A stretch of DNA of 64,000 nucleotides from Vulcanimicrobiota bacterium (GTDB lineage Bacteria; Vulcanimicrobiota; Xenobia; Xenobiales; JADMJV01), in contig JAHBVR010000008.1 of NCBI GenBank assembly GCA_019637395.1, forward strand, positions 62,001 through 126,000, written 5' to 3'. The position numbers and the translations under genes were made by a program. Numbering within the stretch: the first letter of the stretch is position 1; each line of letters opens with the position of its first letter. Below the pieces are notes generated by a model. That model was given only the letters and a program-made list of their open reading frames with translations. It made no database searches and was not told the DNA's origin. Shown here piece by piece: positions 1,365 through 46,390 of this stretch.

Positions 1365-2990
1365 TTAGCGGCCGACGGTCTCGTAGACGCCCTGGAGGCG
1401 CCAGGGAGAGGAGCCGGCCATCTGACGGTCGGCAAGATTGGTGTCATATTCGATGGTGGAGCCGTTCTTGAGCCAAACTGCTTCACCGGAGACCGAACCG
1501 AGCAGGCGGGCCTTGTCCAACTTGGCGATCAAGTTATTCCCCTGAGCCACCATGGTCGCTTTGGCATCCGGAGCCATGGTCAGACGCGAGTAGCCGGCGG
1601 CTTTGGCGCTGACCCCGCTAACCGGTAGTCCCGTTTCGGGATCGATGGTGGTGGTGGCGGTACTGGTAGTGGTCTCCGTTTCTCCGGTGTCTTCGTCGGT
1701 GAAATAGACCTGCACCTGGGCCGGGTCTCCCTGGAAGTTGACCCGGCCACCCGAGCCCACCAGCATTTTCTTGCCGACGTAGATGACCACGTCACCGCGA
1801 TCCCAATCGTCCACTTCGATCTCGCCGTTGATCTCGAAGGTGTCGGCAAAATAGTAGCGTCCGGGTTTGAGTTTGAGCTTCTGGCCGGAGGGCACGCTCA
1901 CCGATTTATAAGCTTTGGGCTCTAAGATGGCGGTGTCCCAAACATCGTTGCCCCACTCATCTTTCCTCTTCTTGGCGGGGAAATCGCTCAGCACGGTGGT
2001 CGCCTCCGCTCTGTCATAGGGGGGGACCGCGGCTTTCTTGGCGGCCGCTACGGTGGGCGCTTTTTGTTCTCCGGTAAAATTGGTGGTCTTGGTGGGCGAA
2101 GTATCGACTCCGCTCATGGCGGTGGCCATTTCGGGATCGAGTTCCTGCAACTTTTGGCGGACGCTGGCGACTGTGGCGGCTTCGGTGTCGACACCGCCAC
2201 TTCCGTCATCCACGGTGCTGGTGGCGGTTCCCTTCACCAGTTGGGGCATGAAGACGTCGCCTTCGACCTTGGAGGTGTCGCCGATCTGCATCAAAGTGCT
2301 GGTGGCCACGTCAGCCTTGCCCTTGACCATTTTATGGTCGTCTTTCTTGTCGTCTTTGTCGTCTTTCTTATCTTCCGGGGCGGCCGGATCCGGATTGATG
2401 TAGCCGTCGTAGCTCATGGTGGATTGGTTATCCCGGGCCCAACCCTTGTACATCCAGAAATCGTAAGCGCGCGTCTTGGAGTCTCCCGTCATCAGGATGG
2501 TGGAACGGGCCGAGGCGGCGGTCTTGAAGTTGGTGGGCTTGAAGATGGCGGTTCCCACCATTCCGGAGAGGGAACGTTCGACTTTACTGTTGTCCGCGTT
2601 CTCCTCCAGGATCACGCGCGACTCGATTTTGGCGCAGTTGACGGGGATCTCAGCAGTATTGAAGCGGAGCGAAGGGCCGTCCAGGGAGCCGGCCCTGGGG
2701 GGAATCGTATTGCGCTGGTTTTTGACCGTCACTCGATAGATGAAGCCTTCTCGACCCGGTACTCGGCCTTCAAAGGTGTCGTTGTATTCCGGGAAGTTGC
2801 GCAACTTGATCATGGCGTGCTGGATGCCAGCATAGGCGATATAGCGAGAAGTTCCGGCGCCTGAAGACCAGTTGGTGGTCTTGTAGTTCTGCAGGGTATT
2901 GCTGGCGACCACCGCCGTGATAATGGCCAACAACATCGTCAGCATTAACACGGTCGCCAGTACGGAGCCTCTTTGCTGCCTGTTTCGCAT
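1365..2990 (-). CDS. PilX-like pilus-associated protein with large ectodomain
   Basis: 541 residues. The N-terminus MRNRQQRGSVLATVLMLT gives a Gly followed by a ~20-residue hydrophobic helix, as in PilX/GspK-type pilin-like proteins. The next segment (TSRYIAYAGIQHAMIKLRN) is the alpha-helical continuation typical of the family. The rest is a long exported region with a highly charged Asp/Lys tract near residues 205-222 and a beta-rich C-terminal half with repeated GDV/GEI strands (DRGDVVIYVGKKMLVGSGG). It is the last gene of a minus-strand run, 12 nt after the preceding pilin-like gene. Probably a minor pseudopilin or pilus-tip component; its ligand is unknown. It resembles the 657-residue protein at 43.2-45.1 kb in plan. 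Confidence 0.7.
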   Translation of the reverse strand: MRNRQQRGSVLATVLMLTMLLAIITAVVASNTLQNYKTTNWSSGAGTSRYIAYAGIQHAMIKLRNFPEYNDTFEGRVPGREGFIYRVTVKNQRNTIPPRAGSLDGPSLRFNTAEIPVNCAKIESRVILEENADNSKVERSLSGMVGTAIFKPTNFKTAASARSTILMTGDSKTRAYDFWMYKGWARDNQSTMSYDGYINPDPAAPEDKKDDKDDKKDDHKMVKGKADVATSTLMQIGDTSKVEGDVFMPQLVKGTATSTVDDGSGGVDTEAATVASVRQKLQELDPEMATAMSGVDTSPTKTTNFTGEQKAPTVAAAKKAAVPPYDRAEATTVLSDFPAKKRKDEWGNDVWDTAILEPKAYKSVSVPSGQKLKLKPGRYYFADTFEINGEIEVDDWDRGDVVIYVGKKMLVGSGGRVNFQGDPAQVQVYFTDEDTGETETTTSTATTTIDPETGLPVSGVSAKAAGYSRLTMAPDAKATMVAQGNNLIAKLDKARLLGSVSGEAVWLKNGSTIEYDTNLADRQMAGSSPWRLQGVYETVGR

Positions 2991-3002
2991 TCGATACCTG
3001 CC

Positions 3003-3605
3003 TTAATTGCGTGCTTTGAGCTTGGTCTTGATACTCACCAGGAACTGATTATCGCGAGACTTTGCTCCAAGTATAACATCAACTGTGGTACTTGACACTA
3101 CGTCCAGATAATAGACTCTCTTGGCAACCGTGCCCCGAGAGGCGTTCAGGTTGGTCCAAAAAGCATCATGATAATCATTGGGGATGGTGGGGGGACTGGA
3201 GACGGGCGTATCCAACCACTTTTCTTTCCGGTAGAGAGTCATTTCCTCTCCGTCGGGCGCAACATAGTAGCCGATATAGCTATGCCACTGCAGGTCGCCG
3301 CTGGCGGCGAAGGTAACCTGTCCCGCCTGGTTGCGCGCCGAGCCGAAGGTGACGAACTTATGATTATTCGTGTCGCCACGGATGGCCACTCCGTTACTTT
3401 CCAGGAGTTCCGTCACCAGCCGGCTGGTGGCGATGACGCAGGACTGCTGCAGTTCGGTGGTCATGGTGGTCTGATTCAGGTATTTTTGACAGGAGTTCAG
3501 CAATTGCGCCAGCGAGACCAGCAGTAGCGAAGTGAGCGCCAGGCTCACCACCACTTCGGCCAGTGTGAAACCGCTTCTAGAGCGATTCGCCGATGAGGGT
3601 GTCAT
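3003..3605 (-). CDS. Prepilin-type protein, PulJ/PilW-like
   Basis: 200 residues. After a short basic leader the prepilin-peptidase site is seen as RSG|FTLAEVVVSLALTSLL: Gly at -1, Phe at +1 and Glu at +5 before a hydrophobic helix. The following helix (QSCVIATSRLVTELLESNG) and length match minor pseudopilins of the GspJ/PilW type, which initiate pilus or pseudopilus assembly at the inner membrane (family knowledge). It overlaps the upstream pilin-like gene by 29 nt and is followed after 12 nt by the PilX-like gene, so the three are one translational unit. Confidence 0.8.
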   Translation of the reverse strand: MTPSSANRSRSGFTLAEVVVSLALTSLLLVSLAQLLNSCQKYLNQTTMTTELQQSCVIATSRLVTELLESNGVAIRGDTNNHKFVTFGSARNQAGQVTFAASGDLQWHSYIGYYVAPDGEEMTLYRKEKWLDTPVSSPPTIPNDYHDAFWTNLNASRGTVAKRVYYLDVVSSTTVDVILGAKSRDNQFLVSIKTKLKARN

Positions 3606-4008
3606 AGTCGATTTCTTTCAAATTGCCGAGGTTATTGGAACTCTCCGGAAAAACCACTCGGACCCGCACAGCTTTGAGTTGTCCCTTGATTTCCGAATCG
3701 ACCGCGGGCCGGGTCTCGATTTTGTAAGCATACTGGATGGATTCGGGCATACCGCGGATAGTGGTGGTGATGGTCTGGTATTGCCAGTTCAGAGCGGCCA
3801 GGGCGTCGACGCCCGAGTAGCCGACAGTGATGCAGTTCTCCACTTCCTGGCCGGCGATGAAGGTGGCGATCATGCGTGAACGGGTGGCTCCGACGGTTCG
3901 GGCATGCAGGCCCCAGATCGAGGCGACGTAGACGAGAATTGTGGAAAACAACATGCAGCCGAGAATGATCTCGAGCAAGGAAAAGCCCGATCGTCGCAAA
4001 TCGTCCAC
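3577..4008 (-). CDS. Prepilin-type protein, PilV/GspI-like
   Basis: 143 residues with a class III signal RRSG|FSLLEIILGCMLFST, showing Gly-1, Phe+1 and Glu+5. The chosen GTG at 4008 lies almost on top of a GGAGG at about 4010-4016; a TTG at 4000 would have better spacing, so the true start may be a few codons later without affecting the cleavage site. Minor pilins of this kind form the tip complex with PilW- and PilX-like partners, here the next two genes. It follows the TPR gene by 9 nt and overlaps the next gene by 29 nt. Confidence 0.78.
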   Translation of the reverse strand: MDDLRRSGFSLLEIILGCMLFSTILVYVASIWGLHARTVGATRSRMIATFIAGQEVENCITVGYSGVDALAALNWQYQTITTTIRGMPESIQYAYKIETRPAVDSEIKGQLKAVRVRVVFPESSNNLGNLKEIDYDTLIGESL

Positions 4009-4017
4009 TCCCTCCGT

Positions 4018-7000
4018 CTAATTGTCGCCGAAGTCCAAACCGTGCTGGACGCGCATCACCATCGCCTGGGTCTCCAGTTCGACTGCCAGCGCTTCTCGAT
4101 TGAGTTTGCGCAGCACGCCCGCATACTTTTCGTAGACCGGGATCAGCTCGGCTGACTCCGGACCGAGAGACTCTTCCAATGAGCTTACCACAAAGCTGTA
4201 GAGGCGAGAGGCTTCTTCGTATTTTTTCTGGAGGATGAGCAGGTCGGCCAAACTGGTCGCGAAATCGGGATGCTCGGTGCCCAGCGCCTGGCGGCGGACC
4301 TCCAGGGCCTTGCGATTGCACTCCTCCTGTTTTTCCAGAGCGCCGGCGTTGCCATAAATTTCGGCCTGAAGCTCCAGTACCTTGGCATACTCCGGATGGG
4401 CCTCGCCCACGGTGGAATCCACCACGCCCAGCCATTCTCTGGTGATCGGCTCGGCCGCTGACCAGCGCTTTTGCGTCTTTAAAATCTCGATCTGGGCGCA
4501 CAGGCTGATGCTGACTTCGGGATGGAGGATGCCCAGAGATTTCTTGCGCAGCGCCAGGGTGCGCTGGCACAGTTCGCTGGCGGCCTCGAATTTACGGTGG
4601 CTTTTGTAAAGAATGCAGAGATCGTCGAGGGCGTAGGCGATGTCGGGGTGATTGGGGCCGAGTGCCTGCTCGCGGGCGAAAAGGGCGCGCAGATACAGAT
4701 GCTCGGCCTCCTGGTAGCGCTTGTACAATTTTGCGGGTTCGGCCGCCTGCTGGGCGTACTCCAAGGCTTCCGCGCGGGCTTTGCCGTAGCGGCCTCCGGC
4801 GGGGATGTCTTCCTGGATTTTGAGGCGCTCCTCGTTGGTCAATTGAGCGGCCCTCTCGCGGCGCAAGATTACCTCGCGGTGAAGAGCGCGGCTCTCGTCG
4901 GAGCGATCGGCTCCGCGCAGGACCTCGGCCAGCGAGCCCAGGGTGCAGATGGTCTCGCGGTGGAGGTTGCCCAGGAAGCGCTCTTTAAGAGCCAGAGCTT
5001 TGCGGTAGCAATCTTCGGCATCGCTCCATTGACCCTGGCGGAAGTACAACCGCCCCAACAACTCCAGGTTGACGGCCAGATCGGGATGTTCTTCCCCGTA
5101 GGTCTCCAGCCAGATTTGCTGGGCCTGTTTCAGGCTTTCCTGGCCTTCCGGGTAGCGTTGCTGCTGCACCAGGATTTCACCCAACTGATCGAGGGCCCAG
5201 GCCCGATCGGCGGCCGCGTCCGGCACCTTTTCCAATAGTTCCAGCGCTTTACGCAGTCCCGGTTCGGCCTGCTCGTACTTGGATTGAGCGGCGTGCAGCA
5301 GGGCCAGATTGGCGTAATCCTGGGCCGCCTCGCGCGGTTCGTCGCCCACCCCGTCGGTATGCAGGCCCAGAATTCTCTCATAGAGCGGCTCGGCCAGAGA
5401 AAACTTGCCGTAGAGACGGTAGAGCACCACCAGATTGTTGAGCCGGCGCAGCACCTCTTCGTGATCCGGACCGAGCAGCTTTTCCCAGATCTCCAGGGCT
5501 GAACTGTAGGCTTCCCCCGCCTGCGTGCTACGTCCCTGTTCTTCGTAGAGTCCCCCGAGACTGTCCAGGGTTTCAGCCACCACCTCGTGGTGCTCACCGA
5601 GGTTGTCTTTGCGGATGTTGTAGGCGCGCTTGAGCAGCGGCTCGGCCTCGCGATAGCGCCGCTGGGAGCGGCGGTGCTCGGCCAGGTCGTAGACGAGCGT
5701 GGCCACATCCAGGTGGTTGGCTCCGAAGTTTTTTTCAAAGATACGGATGGCCTGGAGATAGAGGGTGTCGACCTCCATGAACTTGCGGTGCGGATGTTGA
5801 TAGCGGCCTCTATAGATTCGGGCCATCAACTCGTAGCTGACGCCCAGTTGCAGGTCGTTGGCGTCCAGGTGGGCCTTACGCAGGTCGAGCGCCATTTGCG
5901 CCTCAAGCTCGGCCTCTTCGAACTTTTCTTCGGCAAAGTCGATCGAGGCCAGACCGGCGTGACAGGTCGCCACCACCGCCTGGTCGGGACGAATGTCTTC
6001 AAACAGTTCCAGAGTGCGGTGAAACATTTCCCGAGCACCCGGGAAGTTATTCTGTTGCTCGCGCATGGCGGCAATCTTGAGGAGGGTGCCGGCCAGTTCC
6101 GGATCGTCGTCCCCCAGAGCTTCTTCTTGGGCTTCCAGTAGCTTGACGAACATGCGCTCGGCGTCGTCGTACTCGCCGATGGCCTCCTGGCGATCGGCGT
6201 AATATTTGACATAGTCGGCCGCCTCGACGCGATCCAGGGCATTCATCTCGCCCAGCGCGTCGGCCAGCAGCTCTCCGATGGCCAGGCTCTTGCTGGTCAG
6301 GTCGGCGACCACTTTCTGGTAAATCTCGTCCTTGAGGATCTGACCATTCTCGTCGACCTGCAGGTCCGGGCAGGTAATCACGCAGCGGATGCCCATCCCG
6401 GACAGTTGTGGGTCGTCAGCTTTGACCAGCAGGCCGTCCACCACCAGGTTCAAAGTCGACAACTGGGGGTTCTGACCACCCACCGCCACAATGGCCGAGT
6501 AGGCTTCGCCAGCCGTGACGGTAGCCTGATCCAAGGTGTCCTGCACGCCCAGATTCAGATGGGGCACATCTTTGCGTTCGGCGGGCGGTTCAAAAACCAG
6601 GCAGACCAGGCTGCGTCCCAGGTCGACCGGTTTGGAAACGACCGTCTTATTGATTTCAATGGGAATGGGGGCGAAGCGGCAGTAGTCCTCGATAACCTTG
6701 ACTTCGGGGGGAATGGTTTCGAGCTTGCCGCTGGCCTGGCCGAAGAGGCCGCCGAAGGGGCGCCAACCCTTCTTCGATTGCAGGCGGACCCGGTGGTGGA
6801 CGTTGGCTTCCTTCCAGGGAACCTTGTTGTATTTCTCGACTTTCAGCTTGCCCGCTTCGATCTTCAGGCGGGTGCCGTTGGACCCGTCCCAGCTTTCATA
6901 GCTGATCCAGGTCGGCTCGGTCTGGTTGAGCGCGTAGAGACCGCCGGCCAGATGTTTTTCCGGGCGGGAGTTGTTGGCTTTGAGGGCGATCTGGAAAAGG

Positions 7001-7170
7001 TTCTCGACATCAAACAGCGGGTCGCCGTCGAAATCAAAGATGCTTCCTCCCTGGTCCACCGAAATGCGCAAGTAGGTCGCTTTGGAACGCAGAGCGGCGG
7101 CCACGATGGGCACGAAGCTCCAGTCCGGCCTGGCCGGGGCAATTTTGTCGAGGCTCTCGAAAGCGTCCAT
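4018..7170 (-). CDS. Large TPR (kinesin-light-chain type) protein with a degenerate GHKL-like N-terminus
   Basis: 1050 residues. From about residue 340 to the C-terminus there are many 42-residue kinesin-light-chain-type tetratricopeptide repeats, with recurring cores such as AEPLLKRAYNIRKDNLGEHH and LGPDHEEVLRRLNNLVVLY. Residues 1-220 differ: a helix, then YLRISVD, then the acidic turn FDFDGDPLFDVENL, then RPEKHLAGGLYAL and WISYESWDG. This follows the secondary-structure order of a GHKL/Hsp90-type ATPase but lacks a convincing N-box or intact G boxes. It is probably a cytoplasmic scaffold. It sits between hisC (13 nt upstream) and three pilin genes (9 nt downstream) in the same direction, so a pilus-related role is possible but unproven. 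Confidence 0.8.
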   Translation of the reverse strand: MDAFESLDKIAPARPDWSFVPIVAAALRSKATYLRISVDQGGSIFDFDGDPLFDVENLFQIALKANNSRPEKHLAGGLYALNQTEPTWISYESWDGSNGTRLKIEAGKLKVEKYNKVPWKEANVHHRVRLQSKKGWRPFGGLFGQASGKLETIPPEVKVIEDYCRFAPIPIEINKTVVSKPVDLGRSLVCLVFEPPAERKDVPHLNLGVQDTLDQATVTAGEAYSAIVAVGGQNPQLSTLNLVVDGLLVKADDPQLSGMGIRCVITCPDLQVDENGQILKDEIYQKVVADLTSKSLAIGELLADALGEMNALDRVEAADYVKYYADRQEAIGEYDDAERMFVKLLEAQEEALGDDDPELAGTLLKIAAMREQQNNFPGAREMFHRTLELFEDIRPDQAVVATCHAGLASIDFAEEKFEEAELEAQMALDLRKAHLDANDLQLGVSYELMARIYRGRYQHPHRKFMEVDTLYLQAIRIFEKNFGANHLDVATLVYDLAEHRRSQRRYREAEPLLKRAYNIRKDNLGEHHEVVAETLDSLGGLYEEQGRSTQAGEAYSSALEIWEKLLGPDHEEVLRRLNNLVVLYRLYGKFSLAEPLYERILGLHTDGVGDEPREAAQDYANLALLHAAQSKYEQAEPGLRKALELLEKVPDAAADRAWALDQLGEILVQQQRYPEGQESLKQAQQIWLETYGEEHPDLAVNLELLGRLYFRQGQWSDAEDCYRKALALKERFLGNLHRETICTLGSLAEVLRGADRSDESRALHREVILRRERAAQLTNEERLKIQEDIPAGGRYGKARAEALEYAQQAAEPAKLYKRYQEAEHLYLRALFAREQALGPNHPDIAYALDDLCILYKSHRKFEAASELCQRTLALRKKSLGILHPEVSISLCAQIEILKTQKRWSAAEPITREWLGVVDSTVGEAHPEYAKVLELQAEIYGNAGALEKQEECNRKALEVRRQALGTEHPDFATSLADLLILQKKYEEASRLYSFVVSSLEESLGPESAELIPVYEKYAGVLRKLNREALAVELETQAMVMRVQHGLDFGDN

Positions 7171-21832: not shown

Positions 21833-22653
21833 AGCGACGCCACGGCCTGAGCATGGCCGAGGCGATCGTAGCCATGTTCGTGCTGCTCGGCGGGTTCACC
21901 GTGATTTTCCGGCTCTTCCACACCGCCATTCACTACTCCGGTATCATTGACGCCCAACAGAACAAGGTGCGGGTAGCGCTGAACAAACTGGAAGAAGTCA
22001 GAGCCTGGAGCCGGTCTGTGCACACTCCTGTGGGATCCACCCCCTTTGACCCAATTTCTGCTGGCTGGTCGTCATGGCACAACAAATCGGGAGTCGACGA
22101 CGACTACCCGGAAATCTGCTGGAAGGTGATTGTAGAGGACTACGTACTCTACTCCCCCTGCTGGCAATTTGAGTCGATCAAATCCAGCGACCAGCGCAAG
22201 ATGGAGCGCTGCTGCAAGCAAGTTACGGTGAAGGTCAACACCACGGACCCCGAGGCTATCGGCACCGGAATGATGAATCGCCCCGTAGTTATTACTACTC
22301 TGATAGGACAACCGTCCATAGAAACAACCAACCTGACGGTCTCCGTGACGGGCAGCCCGGCCACAGTCGTCCAGGGAGGCAAAACCCCCACCTACTATGC
22401 CGTACTCAGGGCCAACGGCCATGAGATTCTTGACCCCTTCTTTCGCTGGGCCACCCTGGGTGACGCCACCGGCACCTGCCTGGAGAGTGCCACGGGCGGC
22501 AACATGACCGTGGAGCACAAGATTGCAGTTCCGAACGGCAACCCTTCCGTCATCTATAGTGTCCCGGGGGACTGCGTGCCCCGCGCCACCTGCAAATTCC
22601 GAGGCTCTACGGTGACCGGCGATGGGCCGACCATCAGCATCCAGGATTCATGA
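21808..22653 (+). CDS. Prepilin-type protein (PilV-like) with Ig-like C-terminus
   Basis: 281 residues from GTG 21808, overlapping the previous gene by 25 nt; ATG 21853 would lie inside the signal. The signal RRHG|LSMAEAIVAMFVLLGGF has Gly-1 and Glu+5, followed by a hydrophobic helix and QQNKVRVALNKLEEVRAW. The exported part contains several Cys (VLYSPCWQFES, KMERCCKQVTVKVN) that could form disulfides. A C-terminal region with TNLTVSVTGSPATVVQGGK resembles an Ig-like beta-sandwich. It is the second gene of the plus-strand pilin operon. Confidence 0.75.
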   Translation: MVPHPSALKRRHGLSMAEAIVAMFVLLGGFTVIFRLFHTAIHYSGIIDAQQNKVRVALNKLEEVRAWSRSVHTPVGSTPFDPISAGWSSWHNKSGVDDDYPEICWKVIVEDYVLYSPCWQFESIKSSDQRKMERCCKQVTVKVNTTDPEAIGTGMMNRPVVITTLIGQPSIETTNLTVSVTGSPATVVQGGKTPTYYAVLRANGHEILDPFFRWATLGDATGTCLESATGGNMTVEHKIAVPNGNPSVIYSVPGDCVPRATCKFRGSTVTGDGPTISIQDS

Positions 22654-23276
22654 GAAAAAGTGGCTTCAGCCTCCTGGAAACGCTGATCACCATCGCCCTG
22701 GTATCGCTGGTCTTCGGCATGTTCATGATGCTCTTGCGCGATTCATTCACGATCACGCGCCGCATGGCCAGCAAGGATGAACATCGGCGCGCCGCTCAGG
22801 TGGCTCTGGACCGGATGCTGACCGAAGCGCGTGAAGCCGATACGATCCAGTCTCCCGCCGTCAGCGACGACTACACTTTCCAGTTGCAGCTCTCCAAGGT
22901 CCACGAGCAGGATGCCGTCCGCTGCCCGGCTCCCCTCTCCTATCCTATCCCCGACACGAATCCGCCTGGCGCCATCGCACTGCCCGTTCCTTCAGCCAAC
23001 GCTGCGTTTGAACCCTTTAAGAACGATTACCGGCGCAAAGTCCTCTATCATCTGGAGAGCGATGGCAACCTGGTTCGGGAGGCAGGACCCTTCTCGGGTT
23101 CCTTGGGTGACCCGCTGGTGCTGGGCACCGGCCTGACCGGTCTGCGTTGCGAGTGGGATAAAGATACTCCCCTGGCTTCTCAAGAATTGTTGAAGATTAC
23201 TTTGACCTATCAGGAGGGCAATAATCCTAGACCCATCGTGGGTTTGGTGCACTGCCCGGGAGTGAAGAGGAACTGA
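22650..23276 (+). CDS. Prepilin-type protein, PulJ/PilW-like
   Basis: 208 residues; ATG overlaps the preceding TGA (ATGA). The prepilin signal RKSG|FSLLETLITIALVSLVF has Gly-1, Phe+1 and Glu+5. The helix DEHRRAAQVALDRMLTEARE and the short beta-rich rest match GspJ/PilW minor pseudopilins. It probably forms a tip complex with the neighbouring PilV- and PilX-like proteins. Confidence 0.8.
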   Translation: MRKSGFSLLETLITIALVSLVFGMFMMLLRDSFTITRRMASKDEHRRAAQVALDRMLTEAREADTIQSPAVSDDYTFQLQLSKVHEQDAVRCPAPLSYPIPDTNPPGAIALPVPSANAAFEPFKNDYRRKVLYHLESDGNLVREAGPFSGSLGDPLVLGTGLTGLRCEWDKDTPLASQELLKITLTYQEGNNPRPIVGLVHCPGVKRN

Positions 23277-23278
23277 AG

Positions 23279-23785
23279 GTGCGCCGACGCGGAATGTTGC
23301 TGGTTGTGGCTCTGCTGGTGTTGGGAGTGGCGTTGGTAGCCGGGATGGGCTTGATGACCTCCCAGATTGCCAGCTATCGTGGGGTTAGCGCTGTCGAAGG
23401 TGCCGCCCAGGCCCTTGCCCTGGCGCAAGCCGGACTCGAGGATGCCCGCCTGAAAATGGAACGGGACTACCAATTCCCGCCCCGTGGCGATGGCAATTTC
23501 ATGGAAGATACCAGTCCCAACGCCCAGGGCCAGACCCTCTTCACCTACTGTGAAGATGTCCGCGTGGGCGGTAAACGCTTCGGTTCCTATCAGGTCAGTA
23601 TCGATACCAGTTTCGTTACCGAATATAAGTTCACTCGTATCATTTCTAACGGAATTATTGGACCTTTAGAAGCTCCTATAGCCCAGCGTACGCTGAAGGT
23701 TGACATCGACACCAATGTAGGGGACGCCAGTCGCAACTCCAGCCGCTACCTGCCCATCAAGATCGAGGATATGTCAGGCCTGTAA
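23279..23785 (+). CDS. PilX/GspK-like pilus assembly protein
   Basis: 168 residues from GTG 23279, 2 nt after the previous stop. The N-terminus MRRRGMLLVVALLVLGVALV is a Gly-containing leader with a hydrophobic helix but no Glu at +5, as in GspK/PilX proteins. Next comes VEGAAQALALAQAGLEDARL, the alpha-helix found in these families. It is the last gene of the operon and ends 6 nt before the converging cardiolipin synthase gene. Confidence 0.72.
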   Translation: MRRRGMLLVVALLVLGVALVAGMGLMTSQIASYRGVSAVEGAAQALALAQAGLEDARLKMERDYQFPPRGDGNFMEDTSPNAQGQTLFTYCEDVRVGGKRFGSYQVSIDTSFVTEYKFTRIISNGIIGPLEAPIAQRTLKVDIDTNVGDASRNSSRYLPIKIEDMSGL

Positions 23786-40694: not shown

Positions 40695-42146
40695 TCAGGT
40701 GCCGCAGTATTTGCGTTGAATCTTGGTTAGTTCCACCTGAACCTCCACCAATCCCTTGAAGCGCTTGGATGGATCCTTCAGGAGCATCCGATCGATCATG
40801 TTCTCCAGTTCATCCGGCAGTTGGGATTTATATTCGCGGATGCGCGGCGGTGGTTCTTGCAGGTGCTTCATGACCAGGGTGAGCGAGTCGGCTACTTCGA
40901 AGGGGCGCCGTCCGGTGAAGAGTTCAAACATCATCACGCCCAGAGCGTACTGGTCGGTGGCCGGCAGCAGGGTTCCGCCGGTGATCTGTTCCGGGGCCAT
41001 GTAGGCCGGGGTTCCGAAGGTATCGCCGGTTCTGGTTACGTTCTCGGATTCTTCACGCTTGGCCAGGCCGAGGTCCATGACTTTTACCAGCTTATTGTCG
41101 GTGACCATGACGTTATCCGGCTTGAGGTCGCGGTGGACGATTCCCTTTTGGTGAGCATGGATAAGGCCTTGCACGATGCCCAGGGCGATGGGAATACCGT
41201 CGGGGAGGGGCATGCCTTTGCTGGGCAACATGTCGCGCAAGGTTTCGCCCTGAATGTATTCCATGGAGAGGTAGAGGATGCCGTCCTGTTCGCCGTAGTC
41301 GATCATGCGCACCACGTTGGGATGATCCAGCGTGCGTGAGATCTGCACTTCGCGACTGAAGCGGCGGCGATAGTCTTGATCTTGAGCCAGTTCCGGATTC
41401 ATGACTTTGACGGCCACGGCTTCATCCTCGTTCATGGTCAGGGTCGAGATGCCCTTGTAGACCACCGCCATGCCGCCGGCACCCAGGCGTTTGACGGTGG
41501 CCCATTCGCCGAATTGGCGGCCCAGGAAGACGTCGTTTTGAATGTCGAGGCTGCGCAGCCGAGCGTTAAATTTGGCCACTTTGGCGTTCTCCTCGCGCCA
41601 GGCCTTCTGACGGGGGACCACCACGGCGATGAGAAAAAAGGCGACGCTGCTCAGAGCGGCAACGAAACTGCCGAAGAGAATCGGGTGAAGGGTGCAGCTG
41701 TAGGCCAGGCGTTGAAAGAACGCGCCTGCTCCTGGGGCTGGTTTGAGCTGAATGGGCTCGCTGTCATGGAGGCCGGGATAATAGATAACCGGTAGAGCGT
41801 CGACACTGAGATTGGGAGTTTCGGCTGGAAAGACCTTTGGGGAAACGATTTCTTGGCGTGCCAAATACCCGTGGAAATGCGGGACTTCTGTCTGGCCTGC
41901 GGCCATCTCGCCTCCGATGTGCAGGGTAAGCCCGCTCCGGAATTTCACCCGATCTATGACGATGGGTTCATTGGCCAACCCGAGGCGTACCACATTGCCC
42001 TGATTGGAGACGGCTTCCACATAGACGGCCGCGCCCGGAGGCTCGACCCGAAATTGGAATTTCATGGGTTCCCTGGCCTGCTCGGGCAGCGTCCAAACGG
42101 ATTGCGTTAGCAAGAGTCCTAAGAATAGGACCTGCCATCGTAGCAT
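40695..42146 (-). CDS. Membrane-anchored Ser/Thr protein kinase
   Basis: 483 residues. A signal peptide (MLRWQVLFLGLLLTQSVWT) leads an exported domain of ~130 residues, a membrane helix (LFGSFVAALSSVAFFLIAVV) and a cytoplasmic Hanks-type kinase: GAGGMAVVYKG (P-loop), AVAVKVM (Lys), HRDLKPDNVMV (catalytic Asp and Asn), MDLGLAK (DLG in place of DFG), and FGTPAYMAPEQ. The extracellular part starts with a beta-rich FQFRVEPPGAAVYVEAV. It directly abuts the last pilin gene of the operon (42146/42147), so it may sense or regulate pilus assembly; that link is inferred from position only. Confidence 0.88.
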   Translation of the reverse strand: MLRWQVLFLGLLLTQSVWTLPEQAREPMKFQFRVEPPGAAVYVEAVSNQGNVVRLGLANEPIVIDRVKFRSGLTLHIGGEMAAGQTEVPHFHGYLARQEIVSPKVFPAETPNLSVDALPVIYYPGLHDSEPIQLKPAPGAGAFFQRLAYSCTLHPILFGSFVAALSSVAFFLIAVVVPRQKAWREENAKVAKFNARLRSLDIQNDVFLGRQFGEWATVKRLGAGGMAVVYKGISTLTMNEDEAVAVKVMNPELAQDQDYRRRFSREVQISRTLDHPNVVRMIDYGEQDGILYLSMEYIQGETLRDMLPSKGMPLPDGIPIALGIVQGLIHAHQKGIVHRDLKPDNVMVTDNKLVKVMDLGLAKREESENVTRTGDTFGTPAYMAPEQITGGTLLPATDQYALGVMMFELFTGRRPFEVADSLTLVMKHLQEPPPRIREYKSQLPDELENMIDRMLLKDPSKRFKGLVEVQVELTKIQRKYCGT

Positions 42147-42779
42147 CTAGTAGTGGTTCCTCTGCATAACCTTTCGAAAGAGTTCTACCACGGCGTTGGC
42201 TTTCTTGCCTGGAATCACCTTGGATAAAACGATCCTTAGCGCGTAAATTTCTCCGCCGCTGGCTGTTTCTTGATCGACCTCAAACTTGATCACCGACAGG
42301 GCATAGCTTTTCGTGCCAGGACTGGTGGCGCTGACGATGCTGATCAACTGGGCATTCGTGGGCTTTAGTGGCTGGGTGGTTTCGAAAGCTAAGGTGAGTC
42401 CGGTGGGTGGGTTCCCATTGACAAAGTTCCTGCGCCAGAGTTGCGTTTTGGCCAGATCGTGCCACCAGACCTGGAGTTTGGGGGTAAAGGAGGGCAGCCC
42501 GGAAAGCTGGGTGCTGGCAGATAGAGGATGGCAGGCCATGATCATTCCCTGGCTTCCGGAGGGCGCGATCAGCGTAACCCCGTTGGAAACCGAGCCTTGC
42601 AGATCAGTAGTGACTTGCTGCAAGGCCAACTGTCCTTGTTGCTGGAGTTCGGTGCGAATTTGCCCTTCGGCTGCGATGCGGAACGAGGGCATGATGACCA
42701 GGAACACGCACATCCCCAGTAAAAAAGTCAGGGCAATGGTGATGGTCAGTTCGGCCAGCGTAAAGCCTTGCCGTTTCAT
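42147..42779 (-). CDS. Prepilin-type protein, PulJ/PilW-like
   Basis: 210 residues. The signal KRQG|FTLAELTITIALTFLLG has Gly-1, Phe+1 and Glu+5. The helix GQIRTELQQQGQLALQQVTT and the beta-rich tail match GspJ/PilW minor pseudopilins. ATG overlaps the TGA of the upstream pilin gene by 4 nt and the stop directly touches the kinase gene. Confidence 0.8.
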   Translation of the reverse strand: MKRQGFTLAELTITIALTFLLGMCVFLVIMPSFRIAAEGQIRTELQQQGQLALQQVTTDLQGSVSNGVTLIAPSGSQGMIMACHPLSASTQLSGLPSFTPKLQVWWHDLAKTQLWRRNFVNGNPPTGLTLAFETTQPLKPTNAQLISIVSATSPGTKSYALSVIKFEVDQETASGGEIYALRIVLSKVIPGKKANAVVELFRKVMQRNHY

Positions 42780-43162
42780 CGGGTCACGTTATGCAGGTAC
42801 ATAGTGTGCACGACCTTGTTGGTGCGCCGCTGAAAATCCCAGGTCACGGTCACCGTGGCAATCTTCAGGTAGGGCTCGAGACTGGCGTCGCTTTCATAGG
42901 CGATTTCCACGGTGGGGGTGAAGTCGGTCTCTCCATAAGTCCATTTCTCGTAGGCGGGTGGCGACAGAGTGGAAACGTTGTAGAAAGAACGACTGCGCAA
43001 GTCTTCGAGAATCGCCTGGGCGCAGTTGTCGGCAATAATCTGGGTCTCGCCCCGGCGCACGGCTACGATAGACGAGGGGTAGAGGTTGGCGATGAACAGA
43101 ATGATGAATCCGAACAGGACGGATGCAAAGATCGTCTCTAGAAGCGTAAATCCGCCTCTCAT
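42776..43162 (-). CDS. Prepilin-type protein, PilV/GspI-like
   Basis: 128 residues with the signal RGG|FTLLETIFASVLFGFIILF (Gly-1, Phe+1, Glu+5), then IADNCAQAILEDLRSRSFYN. Size and pattern match GspI/PilV. Its ATG overlaps the preceding stop and its stop overlaps the next ATG by 4 nt each, so translation along the operon is coupled. Confidence 0.8.
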   Translation of the reverse strand: MRGGFTLLETIFASVLFGFIILFIANLYPSSIVAVRRGETQIIADNCAQAILEDLRSRSFYNVSTLSPPAYEKWTYGETDFTPTVEIAYESDASLEPYLKIATVTVTWDFQRRTNKVVHTMYLHNVTR

Positions 43163-45132
43163 TGCGTAACTTCGCGCCAGTAGAGTAGACGAAGGCGATC
43201 AGCCAGGTTGATGAAGTTGGAGTTGGAAAGGCCGGGGTTCAGGGTGAAGGTGACGGTTTCCCCAGGGGGGAGTGTGGAAGTTTCGTTGACGCCATCCATG
43301 TCCATGGCTATCATCGCCAAATTGTTCATATTAACGTTGCCAAGGGTCATAAACGAGTCGATCAAGGCAGTGGGACTCAGCCCGAATCCCACAAGTTGGA
43401 GGTCGACTTGGGCAAGTTCGGAGGAGCTGAGCGGGCTCCCTTTCTGCGTTTCTAATGCTGCGATAACTTCCTGTCGCACCAGGGTAAAGGGAGTGGTGTC
43501 GGTTCCGCTGTAGGTGGTGCCATGCAGGGTAATCTCTAGGTCAGCCAGACCGAGCGGGGATACGGAGGAAGGAGAGGTGGGGGGACCTTGGTAGACGTTG
43601 CCGTTCGCGTCCTTAAAAGACTCGTAGAGGCCCGGAGGGAGTTTGGCGTAGATAGGCGGCGGACCAGGGTTGGTGATTTCGCGGGCTTTGGTCTTGCCTG
43701 TGGAATCGGTGGTCTGGTAGTTTACTTTCAGGTGATATTCTTGAGTTGTTGGATCCTGAAAACGGCTTGGCGGGGCGACGATTTTGGATTGGAAGCCCAG
43801 GCTGGTCATGTCAAAATTGAAGCCCGGAATCACGATCGATTGACCCGGGAGAAACTTTGCTGGCGGGAATTCTGCAAGGTCATGTGCTCCCGCCGTGGTA
43901 ATTTTGATCTCCTTCTGGGTGCGATCCTGGATCATGTTGACGTTGGTGAACTCCACATCCTTGATCGGAGCGGCGGCACTGCCGGAGATGTCGGCGTAGT
44001 CGGCTTTGAGTTTGCCCTCAGTGTAGAGCAGGCCCGAGGCTCCCAGGTGTGAACCCGAAGTGCCCGTCAAGGTCATATCTTGCTGGGAGAGCAAGGCCAC
44101 CTTGTTGTTGCTGTTGAGCTGGCCCGTGCCGGTGATGGTCAGTTTGCCGGTGGCGATCAAAGCGCCCTCACCGCTGATGGGACCGTTCACGGTCAGATCA
44201 CCGTCGACGTAGACGATCCCCCCGTTCAGGGTCACGCCGCTGTTGAAGTCCAGTGGGCCACTGCGGTAGGCGTAACCGTCCACCTGATTGGGTCCGGAAT
44301 TGCTGGTAAAGGTGGTGACGCCAGGTTTACTGGAGGTATTGTAACTGCCGATATTAATAGTGGGGATGTGCACCTGGCCGGCGTGCAGACGAGTTTCCCC
44401 TTTGATGACCGTGCCAGTGGCAATATGGGCGCCGCCAGCCGCTTGTACGTCGCCTGTGACCAAGATGTCGGTCCCATCCAGCTTTAATGCCTCGTCTTCT
44501 GCGGAGTTGGTGGCCAGACTGCCGGGTAGGTATTGGCTGGGATCACCGAGGTCGGCCATGTCCTTGACGCTGGCCACTTTCGAATCGCCTGAGATCGAAA
44601 TTTTCCCCCCAGCGGCCATGGCGTAGGGGAAGGGGGGCACCCAAACCACCGCTTCCATACAACGCTCGATGCCATGGTCGACACCCACCGCCCGCAGATA
44701 GATGGAGTGCTCGGGGATGGTGATGTCCGTGCCGTCTATGTGGAGGGAGCTCTCCCCGCCGATGTTGTTGATAGACTGCACCATTTGGGTGTTCTTGAGC
44801 TTGGCGTTAAGGCTGGGTAACAGGGTCTGATCGAAGGTAAGTACCCCGCTTTCCACCTGGGGGTCTCCATTGGATACCGTCAGCACGCCGGGAAAAGGGC
44901 TGCTGTCATCCGGCGGGGTGTGGGCCAGGACCTTGGCCAACCCCTTGGCCAAACAATCCTCGGCCAAGTTGCGCGCAACCTGGGAGTGATGCAGGCGATT
45001 GGACACGCTTAAATGGTGAAAAGAAGTTCCGGCCACGGTCAGGCCCAGCAGTAGCAGCAAAGAGCTGGCCGTCAGAACGGTCAGGATACCGGCTCCCCGC
45101 TTTCGGGAGTGGACTTTCCAGGGCAGCTTCAT
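43159..45132 (-). CDS. PilX-like protein with a large beta-solenoid-like ectodomain
   Basis: 657 residues. N-terminus KRGAGILTVLTASSLLLLLG is a Gly-preceded hydrophobic helix, then HHSQVARNLAEDCLAKGLAK as in PilX/GspK. The exported part contains regular short beta repeats: TDILVTGDVQAAGGAHIATG, IVYVDGDLTVNGPISGEGAL, and KLTITGTGQLNSNNKVALLS, suggesting a right-handed beta-solenoid or a bactofilin-like stack. Later segments are hydrophilic and of unknown fold. Such a large tip-type protein could serve adhesion. It follows the GspF gene by 15 nt. Confidence 0.72.
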   Translation of the reverse strand: MKLPWKVHSRKRGAGILTVLTASSLLLLLGLTVAGTSFHHLSVSNRLHHSQVARNLAEDCLAKGLAKVLAHTPPDDSSPFPGVLTVSNGDPQVESGVLTFDQTLLPSLNAKLKNTQMVQSINNIGGESSLHIDGTDITIPEHSIYLRAVGVDHGIERCMEAVVWVPPFPYAMAAGGKISISGDSKVASVKDMADLGDPSQYLPGSLATNSAEDEALKLDGTDILVTGDVQAAGGAHIATGTVIKGETRLHAGQVHIPTINIGSYNTSSKPGVTTFTSNSGPNQVDGYAYRSGPLDFNSGVTLNGGIVYVDGDLTVNGPISGEGALIATGKLTITGTGQLNSNNKVALLSQQDMTLTGTSGSHLGASGLLYTEGKLKADYADISGSAAAPIKDVEFTNVNMIQDRTQKEIKITTAGAHDLAEFPPAKFLPGQSIVIPGFNFDMTSLGFQSKIVAPPSRFQDPTTQEYHLKVNYQTTDSTGKTKAREITNPGPPPIYAKLPPGLYESFKDANGNVYQGPPTSPSSVSPLGLADLEITLHGTTYSGTDTTPFTLVRQEVIAALETQKGSPLSSSELAQVDLQLVGFGLSPTALIDSFMTLGNVNMNNLAMIAMDMDGVNETSTLPPGETVTFTLNPGLSNSNFINLADRLRLLYWREVTQ

Positions 45133-45147
45133 CGTCTCTCCTCCACG

Positions 45148-46290
45148 CTAATGCATATTTTCGATCACCTGGGACATGGGAAGCATGGTGGCCAGCACCA
45201 GCGTTCCTACCATAAACCCGATGAAGGCCATTATGGCCGGTTCCAACATCGCGGTAAAGATGTCCAGTGAGTGATCGACTTCGGCTTCATACATCTCGGC
45301 AGACTTCTGTAAAAGCTGCCCGAGAGCGGCGGATTCTTCACCCGCCTGTACCATGTTTAACATAAGCTTCGGGAAAAAACCGGTGGCTCCCAGGCTGTCG
45401 GCAAAGGATTCGCCCTGATTGAGTCCCTCGCTGGCCACTTTGATGGACTCGATCAGCAGTGGGTTTTCGGTGACTTCCGCCGAGATAGGCAGAGAACTGA
45501 GCGGGTTCATGCCGCACTCGATCTGCACGCTCAGAGCTCGCGAGAAACGGGCGTAGGCCAGAGCTTTGTAAACTGGCCCAAGGCCCGGTATCTTCTCTAC
45601 CCAGGTCGCGACAAGCTTCTGGTTGTCGCGTTTGCGCAGCCAGGCGGGGACTGCGAACCACAAGCTGGTTCCGATCAAAAGTGAGCCTATGTAGAAGGCC
45701 GGACTGCGCAAGAAGGTGGTGATTTTCATTACCACCACCGTGATCAAGGGGGGCTCGACCCCGGAACCGGAAATGAGTTCGAACATTCCCTTCATGATGT
45801 ACGGAGGAATGGTGACCATCATAATGGTGGCGATGACAAAAATGAAGGCTGGATAGCCGAGGGCGCTCTTGACTTTGAGCACCAGGGCCCGTTCTTTTTC
45901 TTCATAGCGGCTCAGTTCCAGCAGCACCTGGTCGAGTAACCCGGTTTTTTCGCCCATCTGTACCAGGCGAAGTTGCAACTTGCTGAAGGCGCGTGGATAG
46001 CAATTCATGGCCGCGGAGAGGGGATAACCGCCTTGAATACGCTGGGCCATACCGCGGCAAACCTCGGCGAGTTTGGGATCGTCCGACTGGTCCGCCAGGT
46101 AGTCCAGGGACCTGTCCACAGTGACACCGGCCAGCACCATCGTCGAAAGAGAGCGTAAGAACACAGTTTTAGACTCAGGGTTCGGGCGAATTTGCTCGAC
46201 TTGGCTGAGTTTCATGTTGGGCCGCGGGGCCGCTGCCTGACGGCGCGGGCTAGTTCCGCTCACCTTTGTCGACGATAGGATGAGAGTCAT
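45148..46290 (-). CDS. Type II secretion/type IV pilus inner-membrane protein GspF/PilC
   Basis: 380 residues from ATG 46290 with GGAGG ~12 nt upstream. Two repeated GspF cytoplasmic domains (FLRSLSTMVLAGVTVDRSLD, with LVQMGEKTGLLDQVLLELS; ARFSRALSVQIECGMNPLSS, with MVQAGEESAALGQLLQKSAE) alternate with three membrane helices (ALGYPAFIFVIATIMMVTIP, YIGSLLIGTSLWFAVPAWL, and the C-terminal LEPAIMAFIGFMVGTLVLAT). GspF/PilC is the platform that couples the assembly ATPase to pilin polymerisation. No GspE/PilB ATPase lies nearby, so this system must borrow one. Confidence 0.92.
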   Translation of the reverse strand: MTLILSSTKVSGTSPRRQAAAPRPNMKLSQVEQIRPNPESKTVFLRSLSTMVLAGVTVDRSLDYLADQSDDPKLAEVCRGMAQRIQGGYPLSAAMNCYPRAFSKLQLRLVQMGEKTGLLDQVLLELSRYEEKERALVLKVKSALGYPAFIFVIATIMMVTIPPYIMKGMFELISGSGVEPPLITVVVMKITTFLRSPAFYIGSLLIGTSLWFAVPAWLRKRDNQKLVATWVEKIPGLGPVYKALAYARFSRALSVQIECGMNPLSSLPISAEVTENPLLIESIKVASEGLNQGESFADSLGATGFFPKLMLNMVQAGEESAALGQLLQKSAEMYEAEVDHSLDIFTAMLEPAIMAFIGFMVGTLVLATMLPMSQVIENMH

Positions 46291-46361
46291 TGAAAGGATG
46301 CCCCTCCAAGATGCTCACCTTCACTCCCTGAACTGCCTGCTCTGCCGGCAAGGCTAGTCTT

Positions 46362-46390
46362 ATTATACCAGTACCTTGCCCGCAAAACAA
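46362..46390 (-). promoter_or_regulatory. Extended -10 promoter for the gspF-pilin-kinase operon
   Basis: On the minus strand TTGTTT (46390-46385) is followed after 17 bp by TATAAT (46367-46362), which is preceded by TG-G giving an extended -10 (TGGTATAAT). The expected start site is ~65 nt upstream of the gspF ATG. The same region separates gspF from guaA; no equally good plus-strand promoter was seen. Confidence 0.6.

Follow-up and report, generated by a model that had tools for sequence, protein, structure and literature searches.

A membrane serine/threonine kinase accompanies a pilin-like trio in a repeated cassette of a Vulcanimicrobiota genome

Five genes on the minus strand of the window analysed here, a 64,000-nucleotide stretch of a Vulcanimicrobiota bacterium genome (assembly GCA_019637395.1; 7.66 Mb in 36 contigs) corresponding to bases 62001-126000 of contig JAHBVR010000008.1 (C35), form one copy of a cassette that is repeated about fifteen times in the genome and is present in related families. 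The five genes lie in a single run encoding a GspF platform protein, three pilin-like proteins (referred to as px, p2 and p3) and a membrane Hanks-type serine/threonine (Ser/Thr) kinase. The linkage between kinase and px is not a chance association, 14 of the 15 close px loci having a kinase within 5 kb when 2.24 were expected. With a probability of roughly one half, the locus is read here as a shuffled-order cassette for an exchangeable pilus-tip complex equipped with its own receptor kinase, which would read or gate the trio.

Within the run, gspF (45148..46290) encodes a platform protein of 380 amino acids (aa) with two T2SSF domains (Pfam T2SSF, 3.2e-53), px (43159..45132) a PilX/GspK-like pilin of 657 aa for which a beta-solenoid is predicted, p2 (42776..43162) a 128 aa GspI/PilV-like pilin, p3 (42147..42779) a 210 aa GspJ/PilW-like pilin, and the last gene (40695..42146) the kinase of 483 aa (Pfam Pkinase, 4.3e-52). 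Gene coordinates and Pfam assignments agree with the initial annotation of this DNA, made from the sequence, which had described a gspF, three pilin-like genes and a membrane Ser/Thr kinase in one run. The tight coupling it proposed holds for px-p2 and p2-p3, which overlap by 4 bases, and for the kinase, whose ATG at 42146 directly follows the p3 stop codon, but not for gspF and px, which are 15 bases apart.

The recurrence of the association was assessed by scanning the window genome with the px profile alone and scoring all 77 candidates, matches below 1e-40 being classed as close px. Among the 15 close px loci obtained, the kinase was within 5 kb at all but one (binomial P 3.6e-11) and GspF was present at nine; this full scan supersedes a count of 11 of 12 px. 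Genes were called with our own codon-score caller, which missed the px at C15:51033; this locus is included in the 15 and absent from the gene-order analysis and from the superseded count. As a control from the same genome, 14 weaker PilX-like matches, which include fragments possibly derived from one gene or from neighbouring genes, had a kinase within 5 kb in two cases (expected 2.09), and several of these loci, on inspection, contained px-like/p2-like/p3-like trios that lacked both kinase and GspF. The initial annotation had named kinase-free homologous operons as counting against its proposal; these were confined to one of the 15 close px loci but made up 12 of the 14 looser matches.

The cassette was also found in relatives. 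The best kinase matches in these genomes, viewed with their surroundings, mostly lay beside px, p2 and p3 and often GspF, in varying order and orientation. The relatives were then searched by px alone to avoid selecting on the kinase, leaving out the kinase-chosen loci (L079-L098), and a kinase was found within 5 kb of 39 out of 52 px (8.1 expected, using the kinase density of the window genome), rising to 21 out of 23 where 5 kb of sequence was present on both sides. GspF was found at 25 of these 52 px, a set from which the px of L156 is absent, having been missed by the gene caller. In a survey of 149 genomes of the phylum, scoring up to eight candidates per genome, px matches below 1e-60 were obtained in families f1, f2, f4, f6 and f14; the named px-holding relatives are metagenome-assembled genomes of Candidatus Eremiobacterota, bacterium CPR1 and bacterium BWSM_10, Eremiobacterota being filed under Vulcanimicrobiota in the NCBI taxonomy. 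The conservation across relatives that had been suggested as a check is thus seen in other families of the phylum, and its recurrence both there and in paralogous copies bears out the earlier view of the kinase as part of the pilin set. Outside the phylum, one named match was found, an Eisenbacteria trio (L192) with no kinase match in the gene calls.

Gene order and divergence further define the cassette. Of 79 px loci, 15 showed the same-strand order px-p2-p3-kinase; these belong to families f1, f2, f4 and f14. Median same-strand gaps were -4 for px-p2 (24 pairs), -4 for p2-p3, 0 for p3-kinase (29 pairs) and -1 for kinase-gspF (13 pairs). Within genomes, px divergence tracked that of p2 (r 0.343, P 0.0005), p3 (r 0.303, P 0.0005) and GspF (r 0.59, P 0.001), and more weakly that of the kinase (r 0.225, P 0.010). 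A constant sixth gene was sought and rejected: apart from a heterogeneous group of signalling proteins that recurs at 28 loci, most clusters of neighbouring genes around the cassettes reflect synteny of orthologs.

Taken together, px, p2 and p3 are similar to the trio found at the tip of type IV filaments (GspK/PilX, GspI/PilV and GspJ/PilW). Both p2 and p3 keep a prepilin start with Glu5, Pfam N_methyl being matched below threshold (0.023 and 0.0021, respectively), with lengths across cassettes near 128 aa for p2 (47 loci) and near 205 aa for p3 (55 loci). Comparison of the p2 family with NCBIfam (E up to 0.1) gave matches to XpsI for 27 of 40 members (best 9.9e-10), to Verru_Chthon B for 24, to PilV for 20 and to GspI for 12, the window's own p2 falling below every curated cut-off; judged by these profiles, p2 is related to GspI/PilV. 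Matches of the p3 family were weak, namely ComGE (14/41), ComGF (13/41), Verru_Chthon C (7/41) and GspJ (1/41), along with HpsC. No Pfam family was matched by px, whose prepilin start lacks Glu at position 5 both in the sequence and in the family consensus, and the GspK profile matched 2 of 22 px (best 7.9e-4). The AlphaFold2 model of px consists of a long N-terminal helix and a beta-solenoid, the remainder being unreliable; the solenoid, defined by DSSP strands, spans residues 170-400 (43933..44625, minus strand), with a predicted local distance difference test score (pLDDT) of about 90 over much of this region. In Foldseek, the top solved structure was ComZ (6qvi; E 1.6e-5, probability 1.00), followed by ice-binding solenoids. 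Tapirin was considered as a relative of px and set aside, as it was indicated by sequence hints (2/22 px; window px at E 0.0039; 4wa0 at 0.0028 for the px profile), whereas Foldseek favours ComZ and ice-binding proteins.

Other pilin-like gene sets occur in the same genome. Many PilX-PilV-PilW-like trios are free-standing, with no GspF or kinase, on contigs C24, C14, C8, C31 (182 kb), C10 (70-78 kb) and C25 (loci L254, L255, L257, L258, L260 and L261 of the window genome, G000). The window itself holds another trio in the order px-like, p3-like and p2-like at 1365-4008 (minus strand), next to a TPR protein of 1050 aa (4018-7170), where the profile called no kinase, and three more consecutive pilin-like genes at 21853-23785 (plus strand).

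The cassette kinase is organized as an N-terminal signal-like stretch (a putative signal peptide), an exported part of about 130 residues, a transmembrane helix and the kinase domain, in line with the exported domain described in the initial annotation. The exported domain covers about residues 21-154 (41685..42086, minus strand) and contains a PEGA-like motif, assigned from Pfam PEGA matches in relatives; PEGA (PF08308) was recognized in 2 of 28 kinases (best 2.8e-4), the window kinase not being one of them, and P36 of an FxxxPP motif is invariant in the aligned kinases. The transmembrane helix, at about residues 155-180 (41607..41684), was placed by hydropathy and corresponds to a helix of residues 155-199 in the structure model. 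The kinase domain (residues 207-480; 40707..41528), delimited by alignment and model, carries K247, D340 and D358; a PDB structure comparison covering residues 205-483 of the model matched residues 207-478 to the PknB fold (Z 32.1, root-mean-square deviation 1.7, 256 residues aligned). All 28 aligned kinases share K247, E266, H338, R339, D340, K342, N345, D358 and G360, and T371 is nearly invariant.

Of 95 kinase matches in the window genome, 17 are cassette-linked, and these differ in topology from the other 78, a transmembrane helix preceding the kinase domain in 10/17 vs 6/78 and occurring only after it in 0/17 vs 29/78. A single clade of cassette kinases was considered and rejected, 11 of the 17 falling in a weakly supported group of 14 tree rows (support 14) or one of 17 rows (SH-aLRT, the approximate likelihood ratio test, 93). 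The replacement of DFG by DLG noted in the initial annotation is present, the window kinase reading KVMDLGLAK. Among the module kinases read, DLG is limited to the ortholog group of the window kinase, with five members from the genus (the window, L079, L080, L081 and L082), while the other in-cassette kinases whose motif was read have DFG and one linked kinase reads DMG; DLG also occurs in a second, neighbouring kinase at L065 and in 5 of 83 other kinases of the window genome. Because it is confined to one ortholog group among module kinases and also found in other kinases, DLG was rejected as a sign of altered catalysis and carries no weight here.

The window genome contains 43 GspF genes, far outnumbering the full GspE motors, which are few among 26 PF00437 matches. 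None of the 15 close px loci has a PF00437 (GspE) match within 10 kb, so that the platform does not have its own assembly ATPase beside it as in a complete type IV filament system, and no major pilin was recognized in the cassette. The motor must therefore come from elsewhere, and GspE-bearing machines do exist elsewhere in the genome (for example, L039); with GspE nowhere near the cassettes, the kinase is the only signalling component to accompany the tip. Several fusions found in this group join signalling domains to platform and motor proteins: an FHA domain is fused to the GspF N-terminus at L049 (9380-10876, minus strand) and at L051 (9380-10861, minus strand), the latter being a px-like locus with no kinase within 5 kb; a GAF domain is fused to GspF at L071, L072 and L096; and a 1054 aa protein at L044 (6009-9173, plus strand), beside a GspF, combines GAF, a kinase domain, MshEN and a full GspE. 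The kinase part of the latter reads AEFG where DFG is expected and may be inactive. A second class of GspF-pilin loci was also observed, with membrane GAF-histidine kinases and receiver regulators (L063, L066 and L059), several with BTAD, and with regulators alone read at L058 and L042; this class fits with pilin cassettes being used as sensory devices here.

Upstream of the window cassette, a TATAAT at 46362..46367 (minus strand), 72 bases before the gspF ATG, is suggested as a possible -10 box. A scan for promoter consensus sites gave no excess (2 sites vs 2.5 in shuffled sequences), and a terminator scan gave 8 candidates vs 6.3 in shuffles.

What the data establish is the cassette, its copy number, its specificity for one px family and the intact catalytic residues of its kinase; the pairing of the trio with a membrane kinase suggests that the cell reads or controls surface fibers through a receptor kinase. 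In the arrangement that we propose, p2, p3 and px would come together on the GspF platform, within the inner membrane, to form a tip resembling GspI-GspJ-GspK. Other parts of the genome would provide the motor and the major pilin, and px would carry its solenoid outside as a ligand-binding part. In the periplasm, the exported domain of the kinase would touch the tip trio and sense whether it is assembled or occupied, and the PknB-like domain in the cytoplasm would signal the state of the trio, or gate assembly, by phosphorylating platform or regulator proteins. Reading of the trio by the exported part is considered most likely; phosphorylation-controlled assembly and surface sensing, both put forward in the initial annotation, are inferences. 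A bolder extension, offered tentatively, is that each cell has about 15 exchangeable pilus-tip receptors, each px solenoid binding a different ligand, with the trio as the extracellular half and a dedicated transmembrane Ser/Thr kinase converting tip assembly or ligand binding into intracellular phosphorylation.

Several observations weigh against a receptor-kinase cassette of this kind. At one close px locus (C4:249186) the trio occurs without a kinase; two of the kinases most like that of the window (L085 and L091) lie outside any cassette, and a third (L092) is six genes away from px. The linked kinases are clustered and yet do not form one clade (10 changes vs 15.7 when shuffled), and 7 of the 17 have no transmembrane helix at the hydropathy threshold used. 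The models add to this, the fold of the kinase ectodomain having low pLDDT and the px model being middling (mean pLDDT 60.8), with a TM-score to ComZ of just 0.20. GspF, for its part, is tied less tightly than the kinase, as the counts above show both for the own genome (9/15) and for relatives (25/52), which makes a platform-centered reading weak; anchored on GspF, the excess of kinases was modest, both on the same strand within 5 kb (8/41, 2.9 expected, P 0.008) and on either strand (10 vs 5.5 expected, P 0.04), so that GspF was rejected in favor of px as the anchor of the association (8/41 vs 14/15).

This modest excess, with the abundance of kinase matches and GspF genes in the genome, is what speaks for chance or hitch-hiking neighbors. 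Such an explanation is scarcely credible given the px-anchored count, the in-genome control of 2/14 and the recurrence in other families; the counts refute it unless the px scan favored kinase loci, and that scan used the px profile alone. It is also rather improbable that the kinase is an envelope sensor merely sharing a transcript with secreted, membrane-anchored pilin-like adhesins that form no filament. The lack of a full machine in any cassette (no GspE within 10 kb, no major pilin recognized) and the small, PEGA-like exported domain would suit this explanation, but the sizes and relationships of the trio fit GspI/J/K and 9 of the 15 cassettes include GspF. A stronger competitor, although we still consider it unlikely, is that the kinase controls rather than reads the fiber, selecting which tip complex is assembled through phosphorylation of GspF or of a shared GspE motor. 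In favor of this, FHA-GspF, GAF-GspF and GAF-kinase-GspE fusions occur in this group, kinase and gspF are same-strand neighbors at 13 loci with a median gap of -1, and with no GspE within 10 kb of the close px loci a shared motor must be apportioned. However, the kinase accompanies px even where GspF is missing (5 of the 14 kinase-linked loci), the GspF of the window cassette has no FHA or GAF domain, and the L044 kinase part, with AEFG, may be inactive.

If the receptor-kinase cassette is read correctly, the many natural copies with differing solenoids and kinases, together with the kinase-free controls in the same genome, provide a testbed for surface-contact sensing, and a hypothesis of function is gained for 17 of the 95 kinase matches that make up a large set in an almost uncultured phylum.

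The minor pilins and pseudopilins are among the known systems closest to the cassette. GspI-J-K prime or cap the filament in type II secretion, as the trio would here, and like GspI-J-K and PilV-W-X the cassette has three pilin-like proteins of similar size, with Glu5 in p2 and p3 and not in px; it differs in a px enlarged by the beta-solenoid, in including a Ser/Thr kinase, and in having no nearby GspE or recognized major pilin. The Verru_Chthon cassette (TIGR02596, TIGR02598 and TIGR02599), a four-gene, multi-copy unit with a large protein A that is not known to include GspF or a kinase, is likewise multi-copy and pilin-like, p2 matching its protein B and p3 its protein C. The protein A model was matched by none of 22 px (E up to 0.01), its presence in the profile library being unchecked, and the name Verru_Chthon was not found in the literature, searched as open PubMed Central papers. 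PknB/PASTA kinases share with the cassette kinase the Hanks domain, the catalytic K, D and D and the PknB fold, but the order is reversed, the cassette kinase having its exported part N-terminal and its kinase domain C-terminal, and no PASTA was seen among the best 25 of 32 families listed for 28 kinases.

Published systems offer partial parallels. ComZ of Thermus thermophilus is a DNA-binding competence pilin argued to be able to sit only at the pilus tip (PMC6561018); it shares with px a pilin helix and a large beta-solenoid and is the best PDB match, while px belongs to a family of 15 copies, 14 with kinases. In P. aeruginosa, minor pilins modulate the membrane sensor FimS-AlgR, which regulates their own operon (PMC5979040), a two-component system as opposed to a Ser/Thr kinase within a pilin operon. 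In M. xanthus, the genes of masABK are co-transcribed, and this operon with its membrane kinase acts on type IV pili; in contrast to the cassette, neither MasA nor MasB is described as a pilin and no GspF appears in the text available, and MasK showed no PilA binding in the assay of that study (PMC3546991). Like FimS-AlgR, masABK serves as a precedent for the receptor-kinase reading. In the available text of a review on how PilB is controlled, histidine and sensor kinases are named and threonine is not (PMC11656802), and Vulcanimicrobium has type IV pili, the word kinase being absent from the corresponding portion of its description (PMC9758169). In the same set of open papers, searched by titles and the starts of abstracts, a Ser/Thr kinase in a minor-pilin cassette was not found. 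To our knowledge, the links between type IV pili and signalling run via histidine kinases, chemotaxis proteins or second messengers. A filament that signals to the cell through a Hanks kinase built into its repeated tip-trio cassette would represent a new route.

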